Assembly (NCBI GenBank): GCA_947455205.1
Contig: CANGNF010000014.1
Location: 1 to 64,000, forward strand
Reading direction: 5' to 3'
DNA from: Acetobacteraceae bacterium
GTDB taxonomy: Bacteria > Pseudomonadota > Alphaproteobacteria > Acetobacterales > Acetobacteraceae
Length of the DNA stretch: 64,000 nt
Shown here: piece after piece, positions 1,797-38,017 of the stretch
Layout of the letters: each line of letters starts with the position of its first letter
Numbering within the stretch: the first letter of the stretch is position 1
Translations under genes and position numbers: made by a program
The notes under the pieces: model-generated
What the model saw: the letters and a program-made list of their open reading frames with translations, nothing else
Told to the model about the DNA's origin: nothing
Database searches by the model: none

Positions 1797-2621
1797 ATGA
1801 TGCGCATGACCGCTACCACAACCAATGCCGCAGCCACCGATGCCGGCCGCCTGGCCCTGATGCTTGGCGAACTCCGCCTGCCCACCATCGCCCGGGCGTG
1901 GCCCGACCTGGCCGAGGTGGCCAACCGCGAGGGCTGGCCAGCCGCCCGCTTTCTCGCTGCCCTGCTGGAGCACGAACTGGCCGACCGCGCCCGCCGCCGC
2001 ATCGAGCGGCACCTGTTCGAGGCCCGCCTGCCGCCCGGCAAGACCCTCGACAGCTTCGACTTCACCGCCGTGCCGATGGTCAGCCGCGCCCATGTCTTGG
2101 CGCTGGCCGCCAATGATGGCTGGCTCGACGCCGGCCACCACATCCTTTGTTTTGGTCCGCCAGGCTCCGGAAAGTCCCACCTCGCCGCCGGCCTTGGCCA
2201 CGCATTGGTCGAGAACGGCTTTCGCGTCCTGTTCACCCGCACCACCGACCTGGTGCAGCGACTGCAGGTCGCACGCCAGGCACTCGCCCTGGAAGCCGCC
2301 ATCGCCAAGCTCGACAAGTACCACTTGCTGGTCCTCGACGACCTCGCCTACGTCCAGAAATCCCAGGCCGAAACCAGCGTCTTGTTCGAGCTCATAGCCG
2401 CCCGCTACGAGCGCCGCAGCATGCTCATCACCGCCAACCAGCCGTTCAAGGAGTGGGGCAGCATTTTTCCCGAGCCCGCCATGACCCTCGCCGCCGTCGA
2501 CCGCCTCGTCCACCACAGCGTCATCTTCGAGATGAACGTCGACAGCTACCGCCGCCGCGCCGCCAACGCCCGCAAGCCAAAGCAGGCACCACCGCCCGCG
2601 ACAATCAACGCCACAACTTGA
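1797..2621 (+). CDS. istB: IS21-family helper ATPase IstB
   Basis: IstB is the DnaC/DnaA-like AAA+ ATPase that selects the target and stimulates IstA. Walker A is FGPPGSGKSH near residue 120 and Walker B is HLLVLDDLAY near residue 167; ITANQPFKEWGSIF is a typical IstB signature. The start ATG 1797 follows the istA stop by one base (further in-frame ATGs at 1800 and 1806), indicating translational coupling; the longer open frame from 1620 overlaps istA and is not the gene. Length (274 aa) is slightly above the usual 240-265 because of an Ala/Thr-rich N-terminus. It looks intact. Confidence 0.9.
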   Translation: MMRMTATTTNAAATDAGRLALMLGELRLPTIARAWPDLAEVANREGWPAARFLAALLEHELADRARRRIERHLFEARLPPGKTLDSFDFTAVPMVSRAHVLALAANDGWLDAGHHILCFGPPGSGKSHLAAGLGHALVENGFRVLFTRTTDLVQRLQVARQALALEAAIAKLDKYHLLVLDDLAYVQKSQAETSVLFELIAARYERRSMLITANQPFKEWGSIFPEPAMTLAAVDRLVHHSVIFEMNVDSYRRRAANARKPKQAPPPATINATT

Positions 2622-2641
2622 TTGTCGCGCCGCGACAATCA
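2619..2641. terminator. Hairpin at the istB stop codon
   Basis: TGATTGTCGCG and CGCGACAATCA pair around a single C, and the first three bases are the istB stop codon. The same GCGACAATC word occurs at both ends of the element, so this may be a transposase-binding repeat used also as a transcription end. No T-run follows. Confidence 0.5.
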
Positions 2642-2694
2642 GCCATTGCCACCGCGCCCCTCAGCAACAATCATCACTACGCAACGCGATCAAT

Positions 2695-2742
2695 CCATGC
2701 ATCCTGATTGACGCCCGCTTTCAGCCAGATCGTCGCGCTACA
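2695..2742. repeat. IS21 right terminal repeat
   Basis: Read on the minus strand from 2742 it gives TGTAGCGCGACGATCTGGCT and then GTCAATCAGGATGCATG, matching the two repeat units of the left end in order. The terminal CA at 2741-2742 fits the TG...CA rule. Confidence 0.75.
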
Positions 2743-2747
2743 GAACG
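2743..2747. repeat. Target-site duplication, right copy (GAACG)
   Basis: This is the second copy of the 5-bp target sequence; see the left copy at 122-126. Confidence 0.85.
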
Positions 2748-3097
2748 TGCCCAAGAACCTCGACATCCACGTCGTCATGGACAACGCATCCAGCCACAAG
2801 ACTAAGTCGGTCCGCGACTGGTTCGCCAGGCGGCCCAACTGGCACGTGCACTACACGCCAACCTCGGCATCCTGGATCAATCAGGTCGAACGCTTCTTCG
2901 GGCTCATGACCGACGATCAGATCAGGAGCGGCGCTCATCGCTCCACCGCAGAGTTGGAAGCGGCGATCACCGCCTACATCGATGCCCGCAACGCCGATCC
3001 TAAGCCATTCCGTTGGACCAAGACCGCCAACGACATCCTCGCCTCTATCGAGCGGTTCCGCCACCGCACCATCGCTGTCCAGAAACAGTGTGGCTAG
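2748..3097 (+). pseudogene. IS630 transposase, downstream fragment (DDE domain C-terminal half)
   Basis: The frame reads PKNLDIHVVMDNASSHKTKS, with the second catalytic Asp (VVMDN), and WINQVERFFGLMTDDQIR with the final Glu. It continues the upstream fragment (LDTVEQNV joined to PKNLDIH) once the IS21 element and one duplication are removed. The ORF-track start at 2708 lies inside IS21 and is an artefact. The C-terminus is intact, ending at 3097. Confidence 0.88.
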
Positions 3098-3176
3098 AAA
3101 CTTCTCGGTCGGGACACTAGGTCATCGACCGAGCGGGTCGAGGTGCCGTGCATACCCGAGCGGCGCTGCGCTGGTG

Positions 3177-3559
3177 CGCTGGATGCCAGAGGCCGCTGCG
3201 CCGGTGAAGCGGCTGTACGATGCGGGTTATTTCGGTTTCATCGTCAGCCAACGGTCCGGCGTGGCGCATGGATTCTTCCCCGAAGCCCACTGTTCAGAGG
3301 CTCGATGCTTGGATGCTGGAGCAACGGGCACCAGCCGGGGCCAGTATCGATGCCGTTAAGTATTGCCCACATCACCCGGACGGCTCGGTCGCGGCTCATC
3401 GACTGCCGCCGCCGGAAGCCAGCGCCGGGCATGATCAGCGACCTGTTGAAGACATGGCCGGTAGACGAGGTTGCGTCCTTCACGATCGGCGACCGCGACA
3501 CCGATATCGCTGCGGCAAGGCTGCCGGGATTGCTGGGCCCCTACCGGTGTGGCGCAGGC
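3177..3559 (+). pseudogene. Decayed GmhB/HisB-type HAD phosphatase
   Basis: Three frames in succession encode pieces of a D-glycero-D-manno-heptose-1,7-bisphosphate 7-phosphatase-like protein. Frame one gives RWMPEAAAPVKRLYDAGYF and SGVAHGFFPE; frame two, from about 3292, gives DAWMLE and the zinc-loop sequence YCPHHPDGS; frame three, from about 3395, gives RKPAPGMISDLLKTWPVD and FTIGDRDTDIAAA, the last HAD motif. At least two frameshifts separate them, and the N-terminus with the nucleophile DxD is missing, probably lost at the IS630 boundary about 60 bases upstream. It cannot make an active enzyme. The family assignment is by motif recognition. Confidence 0.75.
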
Positions 3560-3721
3560 CAGCCACGGAGGTGGTGGTTGTCTTCCAGTAGCCAGGAAAA
3601 TTGTAGCGCGCAGCCGCTCAGTGCGCAGGGCCCGACAGGGGGTGCGAGCCAAGTTCGCGCTGGCCCAGGCTTCGTCGATCAAGACGAGCCTGGTCGGATC
3701 GAGTGCAACTTCTACAGTTTT
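3560..3721 (-). pseudogene. Second IS630-type transposase scrap (minus strand)
   Basis: The minus-strand frame contains LDPTRLVLIDEAWASANLAR and then LRTERLRATI, matching the start of the IS630 DDE domain (usually LVFIDETWAKTNM...RGERL). The rest of the domain and both ends are absent. It directly abuts the decayed phosphatase, so two remnants of different origin are fused here. Confidence 0.65.
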
Positions 3722-34328: not shown

Positions 34329-34943
34329 TCAGGGTGGGGCCAGGTGTTTGGGGATGCTGACGCGGCCGCCGATGAAGCGGTGCATCCATTTCAGCTCCCG
34401 CAGGGTGGTGCGGAGGCGCCTCTTCGGCTCCTCCAGCGCCCGGATGAACAGGTGGCGCATGACGGGAAGCCACTTTTTGGACAAATCCGGCTTGGGCAGC
34501 AGCCACCACGGGCCCGGCAGGGCGGAAAGCTGTCCTAGCCTCTGGGCCAGGACCAGGCCGGGCAGCTTGAGGATGCGGAGCGCGCGGCGGTAGCAGCGGC
34601 ACACCCAGTGGTGCATGCGGCGGAGCATCAGCGGGCAGTCGGGGTGGGCCATGGCCTGAAGCAGGCGGGTCCAGACCCCGGCATGCGCCCAGCGGCGGAA
34701 CTGGCGGGAGGCGGTGTCGGCCGGCCCCATTTCCGGCGGGAGGTTGCGCCAGGGGCCGTTGTGGCAGGCTACCCAGAAGATGGCGTCCAGCCGGGCGCGC
34801 AAATCGAAGATCGGGCGGCCCGGGCCGCGCTGGCCGGGTCGGGCTTCGAAGAAGGGGCGGAGGACGGCGAACTCGCTGGGGGTGAGGTGGTCCCAGGGGC
34901 GGGTGGTGGCGTAGTGGGAGGGGTAGCCGGGGCGGGAGAGCAT
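34329..34943 (-). CDS. IS5-type transposase relative with only the N-terminal (DUF4096) domain
   Basis: The 204-aa frame begins with the DUF4096 signature WDHLTPSEFAVLRPFFEARP, then RLDAIFWVACHNGPWRNLPP and RQFRRWAHAGVWTRLLQAM, normal for IS5/IS1182-type transposases. The DDE domain that should follow is replaced by a basic unrelated tail (RCYRRALRILKLPGLVLAQR). No inverted repeats or duplications are seen nearby. It could be a remnant or a domesticated DNA-binding protein. No ribosome-binding site is evident. Confidence 0.65.
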   Translation of the reverse strand: MLSRPGYPSHYATTRPWDHLTPSEFAVLRPFFEARPGQRGPGRPIFDLRARLDAIFWVACHNGPWRNLPPEMGPADTASRQFRRWAHAGVWTRLLQAMAHPDCPLMLRRMHHWVCRCYRRALRILKLPGLVLAQRLGQLSALPGPWWLLPKPDLSKKWLPVMRHLFIRALEEPKRRLRTTLRELKWMHRFIGGRVSIPKHLAPP

Positions 34944-34984
34944 GGGTGGGGCGCCTGGGGGATGGGGGGCGCGCAGGGTGGTAG

Positions 34985-35034
34985 GAATTTATGCCGATGT
35001 CGAGGCGCTTATGGGATTGATCTGTCATAAATTC
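34985..35034. repeat. Inverted repeat GAATTTATG / CATAAATTC at the edge of the low-GC island
   Basis: GAATTTATG at 34985-34993 and its exact complement CATAAATTC at 35026-35034 are 32 bases apart, right where composition drops from GC-rich to mixed. It lies 58 bp before the nucleotidase start, so it is either an operator/promoter region or an element end. Confidence 0.55.
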
Positions 35035-35091
35035 AGTAGACAGGAGTTTAAACGACTCCGTATCATTCTGGCCATCAAACCCGGAGATTTT

Positions 35092-36012
35092 ATGGCCTTC
35101 CCTATAGAAGACAAACTCGTCGTGGGTATTACGTCTACCGCTCTATTTGATCTTACGGCCGAGCATGAGATATTCCTCACTAAGGGCTTAGATGCATTTC
35201 GTACCTATCAAATGCAAAACTGTGCGAAAATTCCACCGATGGGATCGGCCTTTCCATTCATTAAGCGACTTCTACATCTGAACAAGCTTTTCCCCGATGA
35301 AAAGCCGGTAGAAGTAGTATTTTTGTCCAGAAATGACCCGGAGGCCGGTCTCCGGATCATGGATGCGGTTTCTTTTTATGATCTTGACATAACTAGGGCT
35401 TTTTTCCTTTCCGGCAAAGCCCCATATCCGTACATGGCCGCAGTGAACGCATGCCTTTACCTAAGCACAAACAAAGAAGAAGTTAAAGACGCGATAAACG
35501 GGGGGTTTCCGGCTGGGCATGTACTGCCCTGCACGTCGTTTGATGACACAAACGATACCCAACTTCGACTAGCGTTTGATTTCGACGGCGTCCTTGTAGA
35601 TGACGAAGCAGAAACTAAATATGCCGACGGAGGCCTACCTCTATTTCAGTATCATGAGGTCGAAAATAAAGATAAGCCTTTGAATGGAGGTCCTCTCATG
35701 CCTCTGCTTCAGAGGATTTCTGCCATTCAAAAAATGGAAGCGATCAACTCAAATCGTACAAATGGTGAGAAAGCCGTCCGGGTTTCCATAGTGACGGCGC
35801 GCAATGCGCCGGCTCACGAGCGGCTCATAACTACGATGAAGCACCTCGGAATCGAGCCCGACGAGCTATTTCTAACGGGAGGCATTGAAAAGAAGAATAT
35901 ACTCGACGTCATGAAGCCGCAGATATTTTTTGATGATCAGCTTGGGCACTTAAAACCGGCATCTGCGAACACGCCCTGCGTTCATATTCCTTTTGGTATA
36001 CGAAACAAGTAA
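35092..36012 (+). CDS. 5'-nucleotidase, cytosolic type I-like (HAD), low-GC import
   Basis: A 306-aa protein of the cN-I-like 5'-nucleotidase family: MAFPIEDKLVVGITSTALFD, VVFLSRNDPEAGLRIMDAVS, and a HAD core LAFDFDGVLVDDEAE (nucleophile Asp), VSIVTARNAPAHER (Thr) and QIFFDDQLGH (metal Asp). It should release phosphate from nucleoside monophosphates in the cytoplasm. GGAG lies 5-6 bases before ATG 35092. Its codons are AT-rich and unlike all neighbours, pointing to recent horizontal gain; the upstream frame extension to 34942 is rejected because it crosses into GC-rich non-coding sequence. Confidence 0.88.
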   Translation: MAFPIEDKLVVGITSTALFDLTAEHEIFLTKGLDAFRTYQMQNCAKIPPMGSAFPFIKRLLHLNKLFPDEKPVEVVFLSRNDPEAGLRIMDAVSFYDLDITRAFFLSGKAPYPYMAAVNACLYLSTNKEEVKDAINGGFPAGHVLPCTSFDDTNDTQLRLAFDFDGVLVDDEAETKYADGGLPLFQYHEVENKDKPLNGGPLMPLLQRISAIQKMEAINSNRTNGEKAVRVSIVTARNAPAHERLITTMKHLGIEPDELFLTGGIEKKNILDVMKPQIFFDDQLGHLKPASANTPCVHIPFGIRNK

Positions 36013-36160
36013 GTTGGCCGAGGTGGCTTTCCGTCAGACAGGTTCCTATGTTGCCAAAGCATAGGCCGTAGGCCGCGACAGGCTCACTCTGGCCCTCCCC
36101 TCCCCTCCGCGCTACAGACCCCCCATCTGTCAGCCGCACCACCCGAGGGAACCGCCAAAA

Positions 36161-38017
36161 ATGCCCGCATACCGCTCTCGCACCACCACCCATGGCCGCA
36201 ACATGGCCGGCGCCCGCGGGTTGTGGCGCGCCACGGGCATGAAGGATGGGGATTTCGGCAAGCCGATCATCGCGGTGGCCAACAGCTTCACCCAGTTCGT
36301 GCCCGGGCATGTGCACCTGAAGGATCTGGGCCAGCTGGTCGCCCGGCAGATCGAGGCCGCCGGCGGCGTGGCGAAGGAGTTCAACACCATTGCGGTGGAT
36401 GACGGCATCGCCATGGGCCATGACGGCATGCTGTACAGCCTGCCCAGCCGGGAGCTGATTGCCGACAGCGTGGAGTACATGGTCAACGCGCATTGCGCGG
36501 ATGCCATGGTCTGCATCAGCAATTGCGACAAGATCACGCCGGGCATGCTGATGGCGGCGATGCGGCTGAACATCCCCACCATCTTCGTCAGCGGTGGGCC
36601 GATGGAGGCCGGGACCGTTGACCTCAAGGGCGTGAAGCGGAAGGTCGACCTGATCGACGCCATGATCATGGCCGCCGACCCCAACATGACGGATGCCGAG
36701 GTTGAGACGGTGGAGCGGTCCTCCTGCCCCACCTGCGGCAGCTGCTCCGGCATGTTCACCGCCAACAGCATGAACTGCCTGACCGAGGCGCTGGGCCTGG
36801 CGCTGCCGGGCAATGGCACCATCGTGGCCACGCACGCGGACCGGAAGGGGCTGTTCGAGGCCGCGGGGCGCAAGATCGTGGAGATCACCCGGGCGTATTA
36901 CGAGACGGAGGATGCCTCCGTGCTGCCGCGCAACATCGCGACCGTGAAGTCGTTCGAGAATGCGATGACGCTGGACATCTCCATGGGTGGGTCCACCAAC
37001 ACGGTGCTGCACCTGCTGGCCGCGGCGCAGGAAGGCGGCGTGGACTTCACCATGGCGGATATCGACCGGCTGAGCCGCCGGGTGCCGGTGCTGTGCAAGG
37101 TGGCGCCGTCCATCATCAATGTGCATTGCGAGGATGTGCACCGGGCCGGTGGCATCATGGGGATTTTGGGGGAGCTGGACCGCGCGGGGCTGCTGGACAC
37201 CAGCACCAGCCGGGTGGATGCGCCGACGCTGGGCGAGGCGTTGAGCCAGTGGGACCTGATGCGCCAGCCGGCCGAGGCGGTGCGGACCTTCTACAGCGCG
37301 GCGCCTGGTGGGGTGCCGACGCAGGTGGCGTTCAGCCAGGCGAGCCGGTTCGAGGAGCTGGACACCGACCGCGATGCCGGCGTGATCCGGCGCAAGGACA
37401 AGGCGTTCAGCCAGGATGGCGGGCTGGCCGTGCTGTTCGGCAACCTGGCGCTGGAAGGCTGCATTGTGAAGACCGCGGGCGTGGATGAGAGCATCCTGAA
37501 GTTCAGCGGCCCGGCGCGGGTGTTCGAGAGCCAGGACAGCTCGGTGGCGGCGATCCTCGGCAAGAAGATCGTGGCCGGGGACATCGTGGTGGTGCGGTAT
37601 GAGGGGCCGAGCGGCGGCCCTGGCATGCAGGAGATGCTGTACCCGACCAGCTACCTGAAGAGCGTCGGCCTGGGGAAGGCCTGCGCGCTGGTGACGGATG
37701 GGCGGTTCTCGGGCGGGTCGTCGGGGCTTTCGATCGGCCATCTGTCGCCGGAAGCGGCGGAGGGTGGGCTGATCGGGCTGGTGGAGGATGGCGACATGAT
37801 CGACATCGACATCCCGAACCGGACGATCAACCTGCGCGTGGCGGAAGACGTGATCGCGGCGCGGCGGGCGGCGATGGAGGCGCGGGGCGCGGATGCCTGG
37901 CAGCCGACCGAGAAGCGGACGCGGGTGGTGAGCACGGCTCTGCAGGCGTATGGCGCGATGGCGAAGAGCGCGGCCTATGGCGCGGTGCGGGACGTGAGCC
38001 GGCTGCGTCGGCGGTAG
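36161..38017 (+). CDS. ilvD: Dihydroxy-acid dehydratase
   Basis: A 618-aa [Fe-S] dehydratase of valine, isoleucine and pantothenate synthesis. Cluster cysteines lie in [10 protein letters not shown] and [38 protein letters not shown] is the C-terminal substrate-site motif. Length and ends are as in E. coli IlvD. It follows the low-GC island by about 150 bp, and no other branched-chain amino acid gene is nearby. Confidence 0.95.

Follow-up and report, generated by a model that had tools for sequence, protein, structure and literature searches.

Integrase-free hotspots and nucleotide-depleting defences

Hotspots that lack an integrase and undergo recombination at their flanking core genes have been described by Oliveira et al. 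2017 (PMC5635113), and recombination in the flanks has also been suggested for the core defense hotspots of P. aeruginosa (PMC10250203). The locus described here lies in the window, by which we mean the whole stretch of 64,000 nucleotides of Acetobacteraceae DNA that was analysed. It resembles the hotspots of both studies in having fixed flanks, a cargo of lower GC content that is particular to each genome, and candidate defence genes. It differs from them in being much smaller (about 1-3 kb) with no adjoining tRNA or tmRNA, and in being represented by four informative genomes in which few cargo genes have a confirmed defence match.

The single cargo gene of the window encodes a 5'-nucleotidase that matches the PADLOC model PDC-S08. 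PDC-S08 was put forward as a phage defence candidate by guilt-by-embedding and has not been validated, and among 100 P. aeruginosa strains its carriers were divided 50/50 between resistant and susceptible, so that it did not track resistance (PMC10855318). Depletion of nucleotides is itself established in defence, both for a HAD phosphatase effector, the CARF-HAD protein Chp (PMC12715507), and for dNTPases such as Clover (PMC12265719). The window gene shares with these systems a nucleotide-dephosphorylating enzyme as the proposed effector. Unlike them, it has neither a CRISPR nor a nucleotidyltransferase partner, and Clover is an HD enzyme. A CARF-HAD effector of the Chp type was considered for the window protein and rejected, since PF06189 is its only Pfam domain and a CARF domain is absent. 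The match to PDC-S08 is near full-length and is to a single gene, as in the model, whereas here the gene is solitary in a core-gene junction outside any known defence island. Taking the evidence together, we put a probability of about 0.58 on the reading that this is a one-gene cargo exchanged at a hotspot through its flanks, and that the nucleotidase most likely acts as a stand-alone antiphage defence.

The DUF4096-ilvD junction and its cargo

Along the window the GC content drops from approximately 72% to 45-50% near 35000 and recovers near 36050. The AT-rich island that the first-pass annotation had placed from approximately 34985 to approximately 36040 is therefore real by windowed GC, and it holds exactly one gene, as was claimed, a full-length match to PF06189. 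The island has a GC content of about 47% against a window mean of 0.709. The lowest 1-kb value of the whole window (0.469) is found at 35001, and the second-lowest place reaches 0.618. A dip at 2101-3600 (0.62 over 1 kb) is shallower than that of the island. In the alignment with congeners, the variable cargo segment, whose DNA is absent from them at the same site, extends over positions 35005-36096 (no strand assigned). It is bounded on the left by an intact gene for a DUF4096 protein of 204 aa (34329-34943, reverse strand) and on the right by the dihydroxy-acid dehydratase gene ilvD (36161-38017, forward strand). A tRNA search found none within the window, no integrase was seen at the DUF4096-ilvD site, and there were no phage genes around the nucleotidase gene.

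The junction was compared with that of five other genomes of the genus (G001-G005), in all of which PF06189 is absent. Four of the five have an ilvD gene 88-94% identical to that of the window; G002 yielded no close ilvD, and the assembly of G004 breaks at the junction. In G001 and G003 both flanks align while the DNA between them differs, being mostly of low GC in each. The cargo of G001 includes a 387-aa protein of no known family and a 176-aa putative membrane protein, among others. In the cargo of G003 a 212-aa protein, which matches Mrr_N weakly, is followed by a Phd/YefM antitoxin and a weakly PemK-like protein. In G005 part of the left flank and ilvD align around yet another cargo, again mostly of low GC, in which a 233-aa nucleotidyltransferase (weakly PDC-S09-like) lies next to a pentapeptide-repeat protein and a 99-aa product is also encoded. 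This cargo is followed by an incomplete copy of the start of ilvD, a TctC gene and then the intact ilvD; the copy is 135 nt long and adjoins the cargo (L034:7900-8102 and L034:6927-7877). We report it as what a second insertion here may have left behind, its origin not being revealed by the comparison.

Relatives thus share the same flanking core genes and differ in the content between them, which is the pattern that defines a hotspot, and we regard the DUF4096-ilvD junction as a likely hotspot at which cargo is swapped recurrently. Recognised defence among the cargo consists of the clear PDC-S08 match, the weak PDC-S09-like nucleotidyltransferase and toxin-antitoxin genes; the rest is unmatched, and the G001 and G003 cargo gave no match to PADLOC models. 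No empty DUF4096-ilvD site was seen among the genomes compared, no donor genome was found with the nucleotidase cargo between these flanks, and no known defence gene was found beside the nucleotidase in the source genome. Comparison of the ilvD junctions, as proposed in the first-pass annotation, found the island absent from the three relatives that span the site, with other DNA in its place in G001 and G003. Of the "compact recent gain" that had been claimed, the gain relative to the genus stands, since PF06189 is absent from the congeners, other DNA occupies the site in G001 and G003, and the closest homologues come from several families. Its recency does not, since composition cannot date the gain.

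The flanks themselves are unusually similar between species. The dS of the DUF4096 gene is 0.089 versus G001 and 0.068 versus G003, and that of the first 600 nt of ilvD is 0.06-0.11 versus the same two genomes, while most other genes of the window have a dS of about 0.2-0.45 or more. The lowest values elsewhere are 0.131 (G001) and, outside ilvD, 0.195 (G003). When G001 and G003 are compared with each other the same trough appears at the flanks, so that it is found on both sides of the cargo in three pairwise comparisons, from few genomes. Since the more distant G005 has a dS of 0.27-0.70 in the same ilvD segment, synonymous sites at the start of ilvD are free to change. The several-fold drop in dS beside the cargo fits an exchange of cargo by homologous recombination in the flanks. 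Since the cargo differs in each species and synonymous divergence falls on both sides of it, we propose that cargo may arrive or be replaced by double homologous recombination through the DUF4096 and ilvD flanks, with no need of an integrase of its own.

The DUF4096 gene had been taken for an IS5-type remnant and hence a possible vehicle for its neighbour. Its product matches only the N-terminal part of the IS4/5 (IS5) transposase, namely the DUF4096 part, and has no recognised catalytic domain. Since G001 and G003 each have an intact orthologue in the corresponding position (dN/dS 0.13-0.17), the gene is, as judged from this conservation, an old resident under purifying selection and not an island-associated insertion sequence. 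DUF4096 proteins of about 200 aa number 6-7 in each of G000, G001 and G003 (for example G000:C107:8718-9299, G001:C73:9737-10318 and G003:C10:56574-57164). These paralogues share only about 52-60% identity with the window copy, and look like a genus-level, transposase-derived family that has been kept without a catalytic domain.

A 9-nt inverted repeat (34985-35034, no strand), with GAATTTATG at 34985-34993 and CATAAATTC at 35026-35034, had been read as marking the edge of the island. The repeat exists but is at chance level: at least one inverted repeat of 9 nt occurs in 21% of composition-matched random sequences, another lies inside the island, and the fold z-score is -0.9. Furthermore, the left arm falls within conserved flank sequence, since G001 carries GGAATTTAT at the same position.

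The cN-I-type nucleotidase and its relatives

The open reading frame listed for the cargo gene runs from 34942 to 36012 (356 aa). We moved its start to the ATG at 35092, since the homologues and the Pfam match begin there and a GGAG precedes it at 35083-35086, giving a gene at 35092-36012 on the forward strand and a protein of 306 aa. The gene has a GC content of 0.47 and a GC3 of 0.48. Its sole Pfam domain, the PF06189 "5-nucleotidase" family, occupies residues 51-356 of the 356-aa frame and was matched at 1.1e-109, with 366 bits against a cut-off of 28.2 and over profile positions 1-302 of 302. The PDC-S08 match (3.5e-119) covers profile positions 10-317 of 323. All six HAD catalytic residues of the DxD, T, K and DD motifs (D163, D165, T235, K267, D281 and D282) are present, and in an alignment they are invariant across 14 homologues from alpha- and gammaproteobacteria. 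Since the profile match is complete and the catalytic residues are intact, the product is assigned by sequence to the HAD-type cytosolic 5'-nucleotidases of the cN-I family, and it is probably an active nucleotidase. From the rest of that family it is set apart in belonging to a bacterial, horizontally mobile lineage.

The AlphaFold2 model of the protein is confident (pLDDT 85.7, pTM 0.87). A fold search of the PDB with this model gave no convincing full-length match, only weak partial HAD matches of low TM-score (6cgj and 1z88); sequence searches of the PDB found nothing and hence no solved structure, and no biochemically characterised close relative was found. Against viral models, the top match carried no name. 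Upstream of the gene a promoter-like TAGACA-18-TATCAT (35037-35066, forward strand) is no better than chance, with 2 such matches found versus 1.2 expected. On the 3' side a small hairpin, CCTATG/CATAGG (36045-36065, forward strand), read from the sequence, may represent the 3' end.

PF06189 was found in 6 of the 300 genomes of the family and 8/385 of the class. The window protein falls in a supported group (98/100) with proteins of Acetobacteraceae MAGs (82-85% identical to it), Sphingopyxis and Sphingomonas (76%) and one genome of another family (70%). Five further copies from the same family are 35-46% identical and are placed elsewhere in the tree. The search for closest homologues thus placed the nearest copies in several alphaproteobacterial families, with most same-family copies being distant, and it follows that the nucleotidase moves between families. 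In the close group the gene has a GC of 0.43-0.50 within loci of 58-65% GC. Since the close homologues are equally low in other high-GC hosts, low GC is a lasting trait of the nucleotidase lineage from which the arrival cannot be dated, and we rejected its use as the mark of a recent low-GC donor.

Several of these relatives have neighbours of their own interest. In two same-family genomes the cN-I gene stands straight after a type ISP restriction gene; it overlaps this preceding restriction-modification gene (L082:9342-15603 and L083:9408-15514), which at one of the two loci is split across two frames, and the pairing suggests a combined operon. In two other genomes of the family (L081:9025-9936 and L084:9291-10262), a low-GC cN-I gene was seen by eye near a hemB-like gene, possibly a second insertion area. 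A Panacea antitoxin lies near the Sphingopyxis copy, and a YoeB-like toxin near that of Sphingomonas. In Sphingomonas albertensis (L074:8001-8926) the copy is split by a frameshift and lies beside the YoeB-like toxin and a TraY-domain protein. On a Zymomonas plasmid the gene is beside those for a SIR2 protein, a non-canonical purine NTP pyrophosphatase and an adenosine deaminase, a set similar to the Kongming system (PMC12948488), although this is a resemblance only; the copy on this plasmid, pZMOB01 (L078:6902-10462), holds one internal stop. In E. coli PF06189 occurs in 98 of 5426 genomes. Eight regions were read out of the 98 carriers, and they include leuX-type (tRNA-Leu) and selC islands with integrases, in which the neighbours are Dsr1, a SIR2 protein, type I restriction and a phosphorothioation-dependent endonuclease.

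Function of the nucleotidase

Both the match to PDC-S08 and the neighbours of the homologues elsewhere support the defence setting raised in the first-pass annotation, for a protein whose activity is predicted. We consider an antiphage function of the nucleotidase plausible, and somewhat favoured. In such a role the enzyme would dephosphorylate nucleoside or deoxynucleoside monophosphates, and their loss may lower a pool that the phage needs or block the re-use of the breakdown products of host DNA. To our knowledge there is no experiment in which any PF06189 protein blocks phage, and our search of the literature found none.

The alternative that survives best, which we hold possible but doubtful, is that a mobile nucleotidase here serves metabolism or house-cleaning, acting in salvage or on damaged or non-canonical monophosphates, and is carried in variable regions as a chance passenger that plays no part against phage. 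Eukaryotic cN-I enzymes serve ordinary AMP or IMP metabolism, so that both fold and family are metabolic there, and in two genomes (G063 and G183) the gene is found alone among housekeeping genes. The failure of PDC-S08 to track phage resistance in P. aeruginosa would also be expected of such an enzyme. However, the very patchy distribution in both family and class speaks against a metabolic passenger, as do the repeated adjacency to defence and toxin-antitoxin genes and the presence on prophage-like contigs.

A more specific proposal, to which we give little weight, is that the protein acts as a stand-alone effector or as the helper of an NADase system, which on infection would destroy monophosphates such as dNMP or NMN and thereby keep the phage from re-using host DNA or NAD+ from being rebuilt. 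If this were true, the adjacency to SIR2-type genes, that is to Dsr1, to the SIR2 protein and to the SIR2-NTP pyrophosphatase-adenosine deaminase set, would be functional.

It is improbable that the gene is instead a phage or plasmid fitness gene which remodels nucleotide pools during phage replication and remains here as a relic of import. Phage T5 does use a deoxynucleoside monophosphatase, Dmp, for its own benefit (PMC12265719), and homologues of the window protein occur in phage records, including cyanophage AS-1, and on viral contigs, some of them near integrases by eye reading. However, among 50,697 phage records only 3 hold a homologue, the viral contig scan gave 5 PF06189 loci, no PHROG family was matched, and bacterial islands dominate the contexts. 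The last alternative, a small self-contained mobile element (an IS5-related unit or MITE-like cassette) with the inverted repeat as its boundary, had the IS5-like N-terminus of the adjoining DUF4096 protein and the repeat at the left edge in its favour, but is largely refuted and very improbable, since both repeat arms lie at one edge and are not significant, no full transposase or significant terminal inverted repeats of an insertion sequence or composite element exist, and the resident DUF4096 gene stands beside unrelated cargo in other species.

A widespread defence candidate, PDC-S08, is now placed in a clear exchange hotspot, and the signature of synonymous divergence shows how its cargo may move without an integrase. 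For this group of bacteria, the DUF4096-ilvD hotspot offers a simple place to search for more defence genes of small size. If the nucleotidase is protective, a 5'-nucleotidase acting at the level of monophosphates would join the nucleotide-depleting defences.
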